From: Desulfovibrio psychrotolerans
GTDB lineage: Bacteria; Desulfobacterota; Desulfovibrionia; Desulfovibrionales; Desulfovibrionaceae
DNA length: 64,000 nucleotides
NCBI RefSeq assembly: GCF_013340305.1
Contig: NZ_BLVP01000008.1
Location: 1 to 64,000 of the forward strand
Direction: 5' to 3'
Each line of letters starts with the position of its first letter. Position 1 is the first letter of the stretch. The notes below the pieces were generated by a model, which saw only the letters and a list, made by a program, of their open reading frames with translations, searched no databases and was not told where the DNA came from. This document shows, piece after piece, positions 1,052 to 15,724 of this stretch. A program made the position numbers and the translations under genes.

Positions 1052-1276
1052 ATGCAAGAAATACGGTGCGGTCAATGCAATAGGTTGCTCGCCAAGGGCG
1101 AAGTAGTTGAACTGGAAATCAAGTGTAAACGCTGTCACACAATGAACTACATGCGGATCATGAGTCCCTGCCGAGAGGCCCGAGCGGCCCGCTCGGAGAT
1201 GCTAAGTGATAGAGATAGGACGTGCGAGACTGCACAGAGGCGAGGAGCTGAGCCTCATGATGGCCATGCCGGATGA
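1052..1276 (+). CDS. com: Com-like zinc-finger translational regulator (74 aa)
   Basis: Resembles phage Mu Com, the small zinc-binding protein that activates translation of the overlapping mom DNA-modification gene. Cys residues at 6, 9, 25 and 28 form two CxxC pairs, with the typical I-R-C-G-x-C-N-R-L-L start. The C-terminal third is read from DNA that also encodes the start of the methyltransferase (71-base overlap). Family knowledge: Com binds the com-mom mRNA and opens a hairpin that hides the mom start. The same arrangement is visible here (hairpin at 1180-1196). No strong Shine-Dalgarno precedes this ATG. Confidence 0.75.
   Translation: MQEIRCGQCNRLLAKGEVVELEIKCKRCHTMNYMRIMSPCREARAARSEMLSDRDRTCETAQRRGAEPHDGHAG
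1180..1208 (+). promoter_or_regulatory. mRNA hairpin occluding the methyltransferase ribosome-binding site
   Basis: CCGAGC (1180-1185) pairs perfectly with GCTCGG (1191-1196) around a 5-base GGCCC loop. The right arm contains the first two bases of the GGAG Shine-Dalgarno (1195-1198) that serves the GTG start at 1206. A closed stem would therefore block initiation. This is the logic of the Mu com/mom translational switch. The hairpin is seen directly; Com binding is inferred. Confidence 0.6.
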
Positions 1277-1949
1277 TTCCGTGGATGCGATCCTGACCGA
1301 CCCGCCGTACTCCACTGGCGGCGTTCATGCCAGCCAGCGACAGCAGGCACCCGGCAAGAAGTACCAAAGCTCGCACGCGCAGCGCCGCCATGCCGAGTTC
1401 CACGGAGACAACCGGGACCAGCGATCGTTCACGCTGTGGGCATCGCTCTGGCTCGCGGAATGCTACCGGGTGGCAAAGGATGGCGCTGCCTGCATGGTGT
1501 TTACCGACTGGCGGCAGCTACCGGCCATGACGGACGCCATGCAAATCGGCGGCTGGACATGGCGCGGAATCGTGGTGTGGGATAAGCCCACGGCCCGGCC
1601 CATTCTCGGCGAGTTCCGCCGCCAGTGCGAATACGTGGTATTCGGGGTCAAGGGCAAGCTCACTGCTGCACACAGGCGCTGCCTGCCCGGTGTGTACCGG
1701 CACTCTATCATCGCGCACCAGCGCAGGATGCACATGACCGAGAAACCCTTGCCGCTGATCCACGACCTGCTGGACGTAACCCCTGAAGGCTGCACCGTGC
1801 TCGACCCCTTCATGGGATCGGCCACCACCGGCGCGGTATGCCTCCAGACAGGCCGAAGCTTCATTGGTATGGAACTGTCCCCGGACTACTTCCAGATCGC
1901 ATGCGATCGGCTCAATCTGGTGGCAGATTCAGGAGTTGAGAAACTGTAA
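1206..1949 (+). CDS. phage DNA methyltransferase, beta-type (247 aa)
   Basis: SAM-dependent DNA amino-methyltransferase (N6-adenine or N4-cytosine). Catalytic motif IV DPPY is at residues 32-35, and SAM-binding motif I (DPFMGSATTG) is at 200-209, preceded by TEKP at 178-181. The order IV then X/I is the beta class. It starts with GTG inside com, with GGAG 7 bases upstream sequestered in a hairpin. It replaces Mu mom in position and probably protects phage DNA from host restriction. No restriction partner is adjacent, so it is likely an orphan. The recognition site cannot be deduced. Confidence 0.85.
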   Translation: MIEIGRARLHRGEELSLMMAMPDDSVDAILTDPPYSTGGVHASQRQQAPGKKYQSSHAQRRHAEFHGDNRDQRSFTLWASLWLAECYRVAKDGAACMVFTDWRQLPAMTDAMQIGGWTWRGIVVWDKPTARPILGEFRRQCEYVVFGVKGKLTAAHRRCLPGVYRHSIIAHQRRMHMTEKPLPLIHDLLDVTPEGCTVLDPFMGSATTGAVCLQTGRSFIGMELSPDYFQIACDRLNLVADSGVEKL

Positions 1950-7256: not shown

Positions 7257-7820
7257 ATGCTTACGAGGTATGAGGTATTTGATTATAAAAATGCACTTTC
7301 AGTATTGAATGGAAGCTTTTATCAAGAGTTTTCTGAGCTGTGCAATGTTCTTAGTGGATTTCGTTTGTTGTCATCAGATATAGTAGCAGCTGGAGGGAGG
7401 AAGTCTCCAATTGCTGAAAAGTTAGATGGCGCACTGTATAATATGTTGTGGATAGAGAAACAGTTTGAGACAAGTAAGATTATTGATGGTGTTGTGCGTT
7501 CAACTCCAACACATAAAATTGACTGCTATAAAAATAAGGTGGCAATTGAGGTTGAGTGGAACAATAAGGACCCATTTTTTGATAGGGATTTGAACAATTT
7601 TAGATTGCTATATGATTTGGACGCAATTTCAGTAGGGATAATAATCACGCGCTCCGACGAGTTGCAGTTGATTTTCAATGGCCTAGGTAAGGGAGCTTCA
7701 TATGGTGCTTCTACTACTCACATGTCCAAGTTGATACCAAAGATTATAGGTGGTGGGGCTGGTGGATGTCCTGTTCTGGTGATTGGTATTACCTCTCGTT
7801 GCTACGAGTATGATTTGTAG
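7257..7820 (+). CDS. BglII-like type II restriction endonuclease (187 aa)
   Basis: Cleaves double-stranded DNA. The core reads Asp89 in H-K-I-D-C, then I-E-V-E-W with Glu98 and Glu100, followed by N-N-K-D-P-F-F-D-R-D-L-N-N-F. This aligns by eye with the BglII active-site region (D...E-V-Q-F-S-N...P-F) of the PD-(D/E)xK superfamily. The IIITR strand follows. Slightly shorter than BglII. It is strongly AT-rich. The methyltransferase gene ends 6 bases away, convergently, so the two form a restriction-modification system. The recognition site is unknown; BglII relatives cut around GATC. Confidence 0.75.
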   Translation: MLTRYEVFDYKNALSVLNGSFYQEFSELCNVLSGFRLLSSDIVAAGGRKSPIAEKLDGALYNMLWIEKQFETSKIIDGVVRSTPTHKIDCYKNKVAIEVEWNNKDPFFDRDLNNFRLLYDLDAISVGIIITRSDELQLIFNGLGKGASYGASTTHMSKLIPKIIGGGAGGCPVLVIGITSRCYEYDL

Positions 7821-7826
7821 GTGTAG

Positions 7827-9014
7827 CTAGTCATAGCGTTTTGCAATAAGGAGTAATTCTTTTACCTTTCTTGTTCGATCGCCTTGTCTTCCCATAGTCA
7901 TATGATCATGGTCCATGACTCGCTCGGAAAATGAGTATTGGGCCATGCTCTTCTTCATTAATGCTCTTAAATCTTTAAGTTCGATCATGCCAGTATTGCT
8001 ATAGCTTAAAACTAAGTTGCTGTTTGAATGTTTTACACCGTCAAAGAGTTGTTTAAATGCATCTCTAACTTTTGATTTTATACAAAATGGAGACTGGTGC
8101 CTGTCAACGCGATATCTCCCCTTAACGCACTTCCCTCCACGTAGTTGAATTTCTGGATAGTCATACAGGACAAGTGTTTCGATTGCGTGGTAGAATCTGC
8201 TGTAATGAACAAAGCAGTAGGGTGGATCAGCGTAAATGGTGCACTTTGGAAGTGTATTTAGTCTTTCTACATAATCAAGAGAAGTAATTTCGTGATTGTA
8301 AATGGGGGGCGAGTCAGGCAGTGTTGTTATCGATGAATTGTATTTTGTCAAAAAATACGATGAAAATTCCCGTTTTCTATATGTGAGTATGTCGTCCAGC
8401 GAGCTCTTGCTCTTGGCATCGCGGTATTGAGCATAATGGCCAGTCCCTTGGCTGCAGTAGGCCATAGCATACATAACAGATGATAAGATCAAGTTATAAA
8501 AGCTGCTGTTTTGATATCTGTCTGCAACTTCTTTTAATGCATCTATCCACAAACACTGTTCCGCGCTCCACCACGTGCCAGAGTAGTATTTTGTAAATAG
8601 ATGATATGGAGAGTCGTAGTGTTTAGATATAAAATCTCGAGACTGCGATTCGATCGTGTTGAACTGTTTGATTGAGCGGACCTTGTCGTACGTAAAATTT
8701 ATACCATAGCGCTGTGCGTTATTTGCAACCAGCAGTTGTGCTTGCTCGACAAGTTCATGTCCTTGAGGAATTTCAGGCTCTTTCCAGGCGGTTAAGTATG
8801 CATGGCTAATGACTCCAGAATAGGCCTGAATGTCGTTCGACAATATATCTACCTGTCCACGAAGAGCCCCGGACAGACTGCATGATCCTGCAAACAGATC
8901 ACAAATTCCGCCACCATCGTATGCAGTGTTGATAGCTTCAATGACAAAAGAGATTAGTTTGCTTTTTGACCCCATGTACTTAATATACTGCGGGTAGCTT
9001 TGAGGTTGTAACAT
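7827..9014 (-). CDS. D12-class N6-adenine DNA methyltransferase (395 aa)
   Basis: The modification half of the restriction-modification pair. Starts with the D12-type Y-M-G-S-K-S-K-L stretch, then SAM motif I DLFAGS at residues 39-44 and catalytic motif IV DPPY at 263-266 followed by a C-F-V-H-Y-S-R-F-Y-H-type loop. Motif order I to IV is the alpha/D12 class (Dam, EcoRV-type). ATG 9014 has AGGACT 6 bases upstream; the frame stays open to 9089 without a better site. No controller (C) protein gene is visible near either gene. Confidence 0.85.
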   Translation of the reverse strand: MLQPQSYPQYIKYMGSKSKLISFVIEAINTAYDGGGICDLFAGSCSLSGALRGQVDILSNDIQAYSGVISHAYLTAWKEPEIPQGHELVEQAQLLVANNAQRYGINFTYDKVRSIKQFNTIESQSRDFISKHYDSPYHLFTKYYSGTWWSAEQCLWIDALKEVADRYQNSSFYNLILSSVMYAMAYCSQGTGHYAQYRDAKSKSSLDDILTYRKREFSSYFLTKYNSSITTLPDSPPIYNHEITSLDYVERLNTLPKCTIYADPPYCFVHYSRFYHAIETLVLYDYPEIQLRGGKCVKGRYRVDRHQSPFCIKSKVRDAFKQLFDGVKHSNSNLVLSYSNTGMIELKDLRALMKKSMAQYSFSERVMDHDHMTMGRQGDRTRKVKELLLIAKRYD

Positions 9015-9479
9015 TGTAGTCCTGAATTCTTTCAATAGATTTACAGAGACACCTTCTTCATAAAAAAGCCAGAAACTCGAACAGAGCAACTGGCTAATAA
9101 ACCGATTAGGGCGTCACGCTTGTTTATTCTATTATGTAAGTAGATGGTGAAAAAATCAAGCAAATAAAAAATGATTAGAAATTATAGGTTTTTACAGGCG
9201 TGCCTTGGAACTGCCCCTCTCCATAGCCTCAAGGTTATGCAGTCGTATCGCTGGATATAATTTTTCAGCAATGCTTGCCTAAGTGCGCTATTTCTGCTTG
9301 CTGGGTGCTTTCATGCTCGTATTGGATTGCCGCTTGCGATGCCTGTGGCGTTTCCATTCGGATTTAGACTGGCTGCTGGTTGGCGGCCCCCCCCAGTCCA
9401 GGAGTAGTTAGTTTTGGTGTGATTAAAAGTTGACCCTGTGATGTACTCGCAATCAACTGGTTCTCGGCTTAGTAGTTTA
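9015..9479. other. intergenic region, no gene recognised
   Basis: Short region ahead of the IS66 remnant. The first part holds the methyltransferase promoter. The part from about 9300 may be decayed insertion-sequence DNA, but I could not assign it. Confidence 0.3.
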
Positions 9480-14283: not shown

Positions 14284-14673
14284 ATGTCCACCTCGTGCCT
14301 GACGTATAGCGAGCTGGCAGAGCATCTTAAGCTCAGTAATGGCACTGTCAGAAACAATTGGCGAGAGTATCCGCATTACTTTGTCACCCCAAATGGCTGG
14401 ATAGATAGGAATCTAAAGTCAGCTCGGTTTGATTTGAATGAAGTAATAGCGTATTGTAGAGAGAAAAATAACAACGAGGTGTATCATGGCAGTCAGAGAA
14501 TACAAAGGGAAGGGCGGGAATTACAAGGCCTACTTCAAGTTAAAAGGAAAGCAGTACAGCCAAGTTGTCAAAACAAAAAGAGAAGGGGAGGAGTGGATCG
14601 TACAGGAAAGGAAACTGCTGAAAGCGCAATGTCCAGTTCCGAAGCGTTTGATGTACTCCGACGCTGCCCGTAG
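14284..14673 (+). CDS. excisionase-like HTH protein overlapping the integrase (129 aa)
   Basis: Residues 6-62 (L-T-Y-S-E-L-A-E-H-L-K-L-S-N-G-T-V) look like a MerR/excisionase-type helix-turn-helix with a following wing. GAGGTAGG lies just before the ATG. The frame runs 188 bases into the integrase gene; the last 60 residues are basic and low-information, probably a by-product of the overlap. Position between rep and int fits an excisionase or directionality factor. It could alternatively be a repressor. Confidence 0.6.
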   Translation: MSTSCLTYSELAEHLKLSNGTVRNNWREYPHYFVTPNGWIDRNLKSARFDLNEVIAYCREKNNNEVYHGSQRIQREGRELQGLLQVKRKAVQPSCQNKKRRGGVDRTGKETAESAMSSSEAFDVLRRCP

Positions 14674-15556
14674 GTATTTGTGTGATTGCAAAGCGAGGAT
14701 GCAGCCTACAACGGTGGCCGAAAAGTATGCCCATCTTACTGAATTCGGGACTTATACTGGTGGGGATATCGCTGTCGAAGGGGTTACGGTGAGCTTCGCA
14801 AAGAAGTTCATTGCTCATACGCAGGCGGAGAAGGGGAACAAGTCGGCAAACAGGAGGCTGCGAACCATGAAAGCGTGTTGGAACTGGTTCAAGGATGAAC
14901 AGCCAGATAATCCATGGAAGAATATTTCCATGTACCCGGAAGAGGAGGTTGCTAAGTATGTCCCCCCGCCAGAGGACGTAGCTGCCGTTCGTTTGGCAGC
15001 GGCCCCGTGGCAGCAGCAGTTCCTTGATGTTCTGCTAACCACCGGCGCACGGTTGGGGGAGATCATGAATCTCACATGGGAAGACGTAAATTTAGAACGC
15101 AAAAGGCTGTCACTTTGGACCCGAAAGCGTAAGGGAGGTGCCAAGCAGTCACGCATTTTACCCATTTCGCCGAAGTGTTTGCCCATATTCAAGCAGCTTT
15201 GGGAAGAGCGTGATCGGCAGAGCCGATTTGTCTTTACCAATCCAGAGACTGGAGGTCAGTTCACCAAGTTGCAACCACGGCTACGCTACATGCTGGAGCG
15301 GCTATGCCGAAAGGTTGGCGTAAAGCCCTTTGGGTTCCATAGCCTGCGTCATTATGTGTCACAGCGTTTGATGGATAGCGGCAAGGCGACGTTGACGGAT
15401 ATTCAGTTGTTGCTTGGTCATCAGCGGGCGACCACGACTGACATCTACCTGCGAAGCTTGTCATCGAGCATTAGTCATCTTGCTGAAATATTAGATGAAG
15501 AAGTTGTGCCGCAGGCACCAGCCCGTCTAAAAAGTATGACCAGACGGTATGACTAG
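14486..15556 (+). CDS. int: tyrosine integrase of the element (356 aa)
   Basis: Catalyses integration at tRNA-Ser. N-terminal arm-binding domain (1-50), SAM-like core-binding domain (about 60-155) and catalytic domain with Arg189 (GARLGE), Lys216 (KRKGG), His285-x-x-Arg288 (HSLRH), His312 (LGHQR) and nucleophile Tyr321 (DIYLRS). GAGGTG sits 6 bases before the ATG. The gene ends 75 bases from the attachment repeat, the standard location. All catalytic residues are intact, so the element may still be mobile. Confidence 0.93.
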   Translation: MAVREYKGKGGNYKAYFKLKGKQYSQVVKTKREGEEWIVQERKLLKAQCPVPKRLMYSDAARRYLCDCKARMQPTTVAEKYAHLTEFGTYTGGDIAVEGVTVSFAKKFIAHTQAEKGNKSANRRLRTMKACWNWFKDEQPDNPWKNISMYPEEEVAKYVPPPEDVAAVRLAAAPWQQQFLDVLLTTGARLGEIMNLTWEDVNLERKRLSLWTRKRKGGAKQSRILPISPKCLPIFKQLWEERDRQSRFVFTNPETGGQFTKLQPRLRYMLERLCRKVGVKPFGFHSLRHYVSQRLMDSGKATLTDIQLLLGHQRATTTDIYLRSLSSSISHLAEILDEEVVPQAPARLKSMTRRYD

Positions 15557-15630: not shown

Positions 15631-15691
15631 TGGCGATGAGGGAGGGATTCGAACCCTCGATACGCTTTTAAGGCGTATACCCGCTTAGCAG
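15631..15691 (-). repeat. right attachment repeat (61 bp, within tRNA-Ser)
   Basis: Exact copy of 2209-2269. Crossover must lie in this 61-bp identity block, which covers the anticodon loop to the CCA end of the tRNA. Confidence 0.92.
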
Positions 15692-15724
15692 GCGAGCTCC
15701 TTCGGCCGACTCGGACACCTCACC
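15631..15724 (-). tRNA. tRNA-Ser (anticodon GCT)
   Basis: 94 bases including an encoded CCA. The acceptor stem GGTGAGG/CCTCATC pairs with one G-U. The long variable arm typical of tRNA-Ser and the T arm GGTTCGAATCC are present. The anticodon loop reads CTGCTAA with GCT. Its 3' 61 bases are shared with 2209-2269, so the integrated element restored the tRNA end. Confidence 0.95.

Follow-up and report, generated by a model that had tools for sequence, protein, structure and literature searches.

The valuable part of our finding is an RNA element at the level of the Com family, consisting of two tandem mini-hairpins, here called Com boxes, that recur inside com genes. In the window, i.e. the whole analysed stretch of 64,000 nucleotides of Desulfovibrio psychrotolerans DNA, a com gene carrying a weak two-box element overlaps a DNA methyltransferase gene. 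This locus looks like another Com-controlled modification operon and resembles an altered version of the com/mom switch of phage Mu, a classic example of translational control. The covarying two-box element gives predictable candidate binding sites at com loci and makes the general role of Com-like proteins, which the accessible text of PMC6240691 describes as still to be explored, directly testable. If Com gates many enzymes, it would amount to a ready-made switch for translation that is portable, and it would serve as a marker in searches for phage DNA-modification genes.

Overlapping com and methyltransferase genes

The com gene (positions 1052-1276, forward strand, as all features of this locus) encodes a zinc-ribbon protein of 74 aa. 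It matches the Pfam family Zn_ribbon_Com (PF10122) with 59.5 bits at a cut-off of 22.9 and PHROG 6417 ('translational regulator') with an E-value of 3.9e-16. Its CxxC...CxxC pattern is made up of Cys6-x2-Cys9 and Cys25-x2-Cys28, and the four Cys columns showed no variation in an alignment of 15 chosen sequences (A1). The window protein has CKRC where the majority of other Com proteins have CPRC.

The downstream gene (1206-1949) starts with GTG. Its product matched PF01555 (N6_N4_Mtase) with 98.5 bits, and this was the only family found in Pfam up to an E-value of 1, without any match to a Mom family. The protein has DPPY at residues 32-35 and, close to the C-terminus, DPFMGSATTG. With DPPY ahead of the SAM-binding motif, the order is that of the beta class of N6_N4 methyltransferases. 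Since DpnA (71.4 bits) and CcrM are among the nearest solved structures and N4-cytosine enzymes match more weakly (41.7 bits), the target base is probably adenine (N6).

Both reading frames share 71 nt (1206-1276). The Shine-Dalgarno sequence GGAG (1195-1198) lies 7 nt before GTG 1206 and is part of the motif CTCGGAG, which the window has in common with the loci L206, L103, and L010. At the same position after this motif, L206 has GTGATACAG, L103 GTGATTCAG, and L010 ATGATCAAG, and this recurrence of (A/G)TG supports GTG 1206 as the start. ATG 1257, chosen by script as the enzyme start for the window and L206, was rejected as the relatives favour GTG 1206, to which the window start was manually fixed for the box-forcing, accessibility, and Shine-Dalgarno pairing analyses described below. 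The initial annotation of a CxxC...CxxC protein overlapping a GTG-start methyltransferase by 71 bases is thus borne out by the ORFs, PF10122, PF01555, and the starts of the relatives.

Com boxes in com loci

The conserved element in com genes comprises two tandem mini-hairpins, each with a 4-bp stem and a loop C-N2-3-GA followed by G. This agrees with CC(N)2-3GAG, the target of Mu Com, which according to the accessible text of PMC6483171 is bound in a hairpin loop close to the structure holding the mom GUG. A collection of 212 loci was reduced to 201 by excluding 11 without com by pattern, and to 131 non-redundant loci after removal of 2 that were too short and then of redundant ones. A hairpin fitting NNNC-C(N)2-3GA-GNNN was located no more than 110 nt past the second CxxC codon in 136 of the 201 com loci, usually 19 nt from the second CxxC for box 1 and 41 nt for box 2. 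Among the non-redundant loci, 84 of 131 carried one or more perfect 4-bp boxes, 36 of them two, while 47 lacked a strict 4-bp box. In the controls, a box occurred in 42 out of 2681 windows taken elsewhere in these loci (1.6%) and in 0 out of 131 antisense regions.

A further set of 160 loci, searched with the box rule fixed beforehand, left 46 non-redundant loci after removal of 2 without com and 112 that were redundant or short. Here, 45 out of 46 loci had a box and 29 had both, compared to 19 of 1136 control windows (1.7%). These loci were retrieved with six Com queries, all from box-bearing loci, and as the query Com genes themselves carry boxes, 45 out of 46 is not an unbiased rate for the family.

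Distribution of the element was uneven. Strict box 2 was missing in all 3 ParB-type loci and in 18 out of 22 C5 loci, named here after the product of the gene following com, and in the phage Chuche (L043), Com and a methyltransferase occur without a strict box. A model of the two-box element, R1, was built from 33 two-box sequences with the window and L206 excluded. At an E-value of 5 it found no match in 5 of 13 chosen loci, Chuche included. Rfam, searched at the gathering threshold, contained no family for the element in Mu, AP3, B3, L029, L142, L206, or L003.

Conservation at the RNA level

Alignment A2 of the com loci comprised 130 rows, one of the 131 being dropped and the Mu row being misplaced in its first half. 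Against shuffles that, like the permutations used below, take no account of kinship among the loci, 81.7% of the pair cells were paired versus 67.2%, and 165 cells were changed on both sides versus 62.6. Structures slid along the alignment paired in 18-57% of cells, far below the unshifted structure. One of the five covariation measures, which counts the pairs having at least one double change, displayed no excess (8 versus 7.4 in shuffles; 258 of 500). Independent pairs on the Com tree, one on starred branches and six on the whole tree, were too few to give support, and RNAalifold, when unaided, recovered box 1 only.

For box 2, a codon control was available, in which the first base of codon 42-44 is compared with the wobble base of an Ala codon. 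Changing the former alters the amino acid, and the third base of Ala is silent. The two bases formed a Watson-Crick pair in 44 of 64 loci; permutations gave a mean of 19.3 and reached this value in 0 of 20000 cases. A stricter set yielded 20 of 28 versus 9.5. Box 2 was also found in all three frames of com, in 73, 17, and 1 loci, respectively, and there encodes unrelated peptides, e.g. ERPRAS and SPSSDV. The further set of 46 loci served as hold-out; its first base was C in 16 out of 16 loci, so that the codon test met no variation. The three outer box 2 pairs of this set, compared with permutations, showed an unclear excess for pair 1 (113 of 3000) and pair 2 (672 of 3000) and were not equalled for pair 3 (0 of 3000).

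Conservation of the boxes solely through the Com peptide is ruled out for the family by the codon control and the three frames, both of which concern box 2. Box 1 is mostly in one frame, and therefore its case rests on covariation. Judged from the sequences, the stems covary in the family and box 2 is independent of the reading frame. The initial annotation had suggested looking for covariation in relatives in which Com overlaps a methyltransferase; it is the stems of the Com boxes that covary, and the hairpin it named is not the conserved element.

Link to translation of the downstream gene

A downstream start could be assigned, by Shine-Dalgarno strength, in 98 of the 131 loci, of which 96 entered the box-forcing, 85 the downstream-accessibility, 78 the com-start control, and 60 the Shine-Dalgarno pairing analysis. 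The scored start was located inside com in 86 of the 98 loci and at or past the end of com in the other 12. Of 8 phage methyltransferases that are related to that of the window, have no Com annotated before them, and come from records not retrieved by the Com search, none had a box within 160 nt of its start. In phages with Com, a box was present in 10 out of 11, four of these phages being close Burkholderia relatives.

Across the family, the downstream start is less accessible than in shuffled sequences. From the Shine-Dalgarno sequence to the start codon, accessibility in the 85 loci had a mean percentile of 0.24 among shuffles of the RNA upstream, with 35 loci at or below 0.1 and 3 at or above 0.9. 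For com's own starts, which served as control (n=78), the mean was 0.45, with 15 and 7 loci in these classes. The start in the window is ordinary in this respect (40th percentile), and so is that of Mu (47.5th percentile), although the switch is established there. The segments of the boxes, making up 20% of the length, accounted for 54% of the predicted Shine-Dalgarno pairing in 60 loci.

When one box, in most cases that on the 3' side and in a few loci box 1, was forced to form, the Shine-Dalgarno sequence opened by over 0.2 in 17 out of 64 loci and closed in 3; hence, opening is not a general outcome of this simple folding model. L029 has a 12-bp stem that covers the start and shares bases with box 2. 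Thus, Com-bound box 2 and this stem would be mutually exclusive. L021 provides a separate observation, a 14-bp hairpin right after a short com that covers the Shine-Dalgarno sequence and ATG of a D12-like methyltransferase gene.

The window copy of the element

In the window, box 1 (GGAU-CAUGA-GUCC, 1155-1167) has 4 bp with one G.U pair and aligned to box 1 of the relatives. Box 2 (GGCC-CGAGC-GGCC, 1177-1189), also with 4 bp, aligned to GGCC-CACGA-GGCC of L206 and has a C replacing the final A of GA in its loop. Each box therefore shows one departure from the motif, while the stems are at the expected place. Both boxes are included in the best R1 match in the 64 kb (1153-1192, 17.5 bits, E-value 0.11), the next match reaching 7.3 bits. 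On the scale of the genome, the site is not significant (E-value 6.6) and not the best. The best genome-wide match, an unrelated site of 24.8 bits (L213), was rejected as a second element as it lies inside a long ORF on the opposite strand, which by eye was taken for a ribonucleotide reductase gene. R1 scores elsewhere were 32.5 bits in L206 and 32.1 bits in L103.

The closest relative found is L206, a contig from IMG/VR with an identity of 93% for the methyltransferase and of 88% for the DNA over 825-1921. Identity drops to 62.7% in the DNA encoding the zinc finger of com (1052-1150), compared to 89.8% upstream and 91.8-95.5% in the methyltransferase gene. The sequences look as if the regulator and its boxes had been exchanged, or had evolved jointly and fast.

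The initial annotation had placed a perfect 6-bp hairpin inside com, including the first bases of the Shine-Dalgarno sequence. The stem exists and is 7 bp long (CCGAGCG-GCC-CGCTCGG, 1180-1196), with arms at 1180-1186 and 1190-1196 and a GCC loop at 1187-1189. It takes in the GG of GGAG, as had been noted, and is exclusive with box 2. It was dismissed as a conserved regulatory element, as it has no counterpart in L206 and comparable stems are common. With stems counted at their maximal length, the window (58% GC) has 39 perfect ones that reach 7 bp or more and close a loop of 3-8 nt; in 6 of these, the loop is 3 nt long.

Whether this hairpin is a chance or lineage-specific stem without regulatory function is about evenly balanced in our assessment, and such a stem would be compatible with a Com switch. 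In addition to its absence from L206 and the 39 comparable stems, the folding of 1150-1235 is unexceptional, 17 of 200 shuffles folding at least as well (z -1.35). The proposed structure prediction of this RNA gave a divided picture. The hairpin is contained in the minimum-energy folds of 1150-1235 and 1165-1215, whereas box 2 is slightly preferred in that of 1150-1215 (-21.8 kcal/mol versus -20.3 with the hairpin forced, a difference of 1.5). In the latter fold, an outer helix of CCGAG (1171-1175) and CTCGG (1192-1196) encloses box 2 (1171-1196 in all) and pairs the GG of the Shine-Dalgarno sequence. CTCGG, and with it the GG of GGAG, is paired in all three folds of the window. Sequestration of this GG by the hairpin and its presence in two of the best folds speak against a chance stem, as does L029, whose 12-bp stem over Shine-Dalgarno sequence and start makes a window-specific inhibitor stem possible.

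Proposed switch and alternative explanations

On the strength of these comparisons, we consider it rather probable that the locus is a translational switch on the methyltransferase, activated by Com through binding to its own boxes. In the proposed mechanism, com and the methyltransferase gene would form a prophage operon in which the methyltransferase start lies within the com mRNA and its Shine-Dalgarno sequence is partly held in structure, largely by segments of the Com boxes. We infer that Com may bind its own two boxes, recognizing the loop motif around GA, and that this would free the Shine-Dalgarno sequence and GTG. The methylase, putatively acting on adenine, would then be made only late, once Com has accumulated, when phage DNA may need protection against restriction. 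The initial idea of a Mu-like com switch on a methyltransferase is well supported in its core by PF10122, the Cys pairs, the overlap in 86 out of 98 loci, the covarying element, and the accessibility data, while the hairpin named for it is not. Among homologues, the overlap and the Cys pairs hold and only this hairpin is missing in L206, so that the findings named in the initial annotation as refuting the idea were not made.

Plain translational coupling would dispense with Com binding, ribosomes translating com melting the structure and exposing the start. The overlap of 71 nt here and its recurrence in the family speak for it, as does local structure over the Shine-Dalgarno sequence in the family. 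It leaves unexplained a protein-recognition motif with covarying stems and the frame independence of box 2. The lack of boxes before all 8 methyltransferase relatives without annotated Com and the 12 loci whose next gene starts at or beyond the end of com also argue against it, and we regard coupling as an unlikely explanation. Similarly improbable, in our view, is a decaying or re-tuned switch in the window, with drifted boxes on which Com is inactive or has altered specificity. Both boxes are off the motif, the R1 score is about half of those in L206 and L103, and the diverged zinc-finger DNA between flanks of 90-96% identity as well as CKRC instead of CPRC point in this direction. However, both ORFs are open, all four Cys and DPPY are present, both 4-bp stems are kept, and R1 ranks the site first in 64 kb. 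The weak boxes and the diverged zinc-finger DNA are the reason why the Com-activated switch is put no higher than rather probable and decay or altered specificity is kept as an alternative.

Relation to known systems

As in the Mu com/mom system, the window has a Com zinc finger and a modification gene beginning inside com. In Mu, the overlap is 80 nt as annotated and 50 nt when the GUG preceded by GGAG is used. The Mu Com-site hairpin AUGC-CUGCGA-GCAU has the same design (PMC6483171) and is located in the same region of com. In contrast to the window, the Mu enzyme is Mom, and Mu combines a single strict box with a separate stem containing the GUG, scoring just 7.9 bits with the two-box model R1.

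Control of a methyltransferase in place of mom had been put forward as a difference from Mu. The gene pairing is confirmed but not new, since the annotations of B3, KS5, AP3, Smp131, and Chuche already have com immediately 5' of a DNA methyltransferase gene and overlapping it. In phage B3 (NC_006548), com ('similar to phage Mu Com') overlaps the next gene by 31 nt and both boxes are present, but the methyltransferase is Dam/D12-like by motif, unlike that of the window. Com and DNA methyltransferase genes also overlap in the Peduoviridae KS5 (23 nt) and AP3 (23 nt) from Burkholderia and Smp131 (83 nt) from Stenotrophomonas, the KS5 and AP3 enzymes being 44-47% identical to that of the window. 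Boxes are present in all three, in KS5 box 2 only, and fit the motif, unlike those of the window. Drozdz et al. 2012 reportedly found Hia5, Hin1523, and Nma1821 to be non-specific adenine methyltransferases in the mom position of Mu-like prophages. For adenine methyltransferases of the Hia5 type, short targets are described in the accessible text of PMC5399793. The KS5 pair of com and methyltransferase was tabulated in 2010, as far as the accessible part of that paper goes (PMC3091744). The pairing of Com and methyltransferase appears to be known already, whereas the tandem covarying Com boxes appear to be undescribed. No account of them was recognised in the open-access literature searched.

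Com genes also precede genes of other kinds. Pseudomonas genes for lectin-like bacteriocins and levansucrase have a PF10122 Com gene immediately 5', according to the accessible text of PMC6240691; unlike in the window, these downstream products are not DNA-modifying. We found both boxes before a levansucrase gene (L295) and box 1 before that of a B-lectin protein (L330). Based on short motifs and, for 12 loci, on reassignment by eye, the downstream products of 113 of the 131 loci were classified as N6/N4 (34), Dam-like (26), C5 (25), Mom-like (16), ATPase (9), and ParB-type (3). Boxes recur before C5, Dam-like, Mom-like, ATPase, levansucrase, and lectin genes. A rough tree of the very short Com stretch, without a shuffled control, implied 50 class changes.

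These data are consistent with a broader proposal, to which we give about equal chances of being right or wrong. The tandem Com boxes would be the RNA element that defines a Com regulon in phages and prophage-derived loci of Pseudomonadota and Desulfovibrionaceae. Com would gate interchangeable late or costly products, namely N6/N4, C5, and Dam-like methyltransferases, Mom, an ATPase-GNAT protein, levansucrase, and lectin-type bacteriocins. The recognition hairpins would themselves act as anti-Shine-Dalgarno structures, making binding and release a single event.

Further genes next to com and the window prophage

In L036 (2304-3425) as well as in L006, L011, and L012, the protein encoded after Com weakly matches ABC-type ATPase and GNAT families. 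By motif, a gene of this ATPase/GNAT type is located 3' of Com in 9 of the 131 loci, and in phage Komp_PAO1_1 it is followed by an annotated formyltransferase gene. The protein possibly is an undescribed DNA-modification enzyme. In three loci from the taxonomic family of the window (L024, L112, and L116), a Com-like gene without strict boxes precedes a TrbC/VirB2 pilin-like gene, which in L024 matched PF04956 with 56.6 bits and in L112 and L116 looks alike. These Com-like proteins perhaps belong to conjugative elements.

Downstream of the methyltransferase gene in the window, a stretch of 70 bp (2204-2273) shares 97% identity with a portion of the tRNA-Ser(GCT) gene (15631-15724), beside which an integrase gene is located (14486-15556). 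The region between the attachment sites 2204-2273 and tRNA-Ser(GCT) is probably an island of approximately 13 kb directly past the end of the prophage. At 7257-9089, the same island carries a gene for a BglII-type restriction endonuclease (PF09195, 132.6 bits), with an adjoining D12 methyltransferase gene (PF02086) on the opposite strand.
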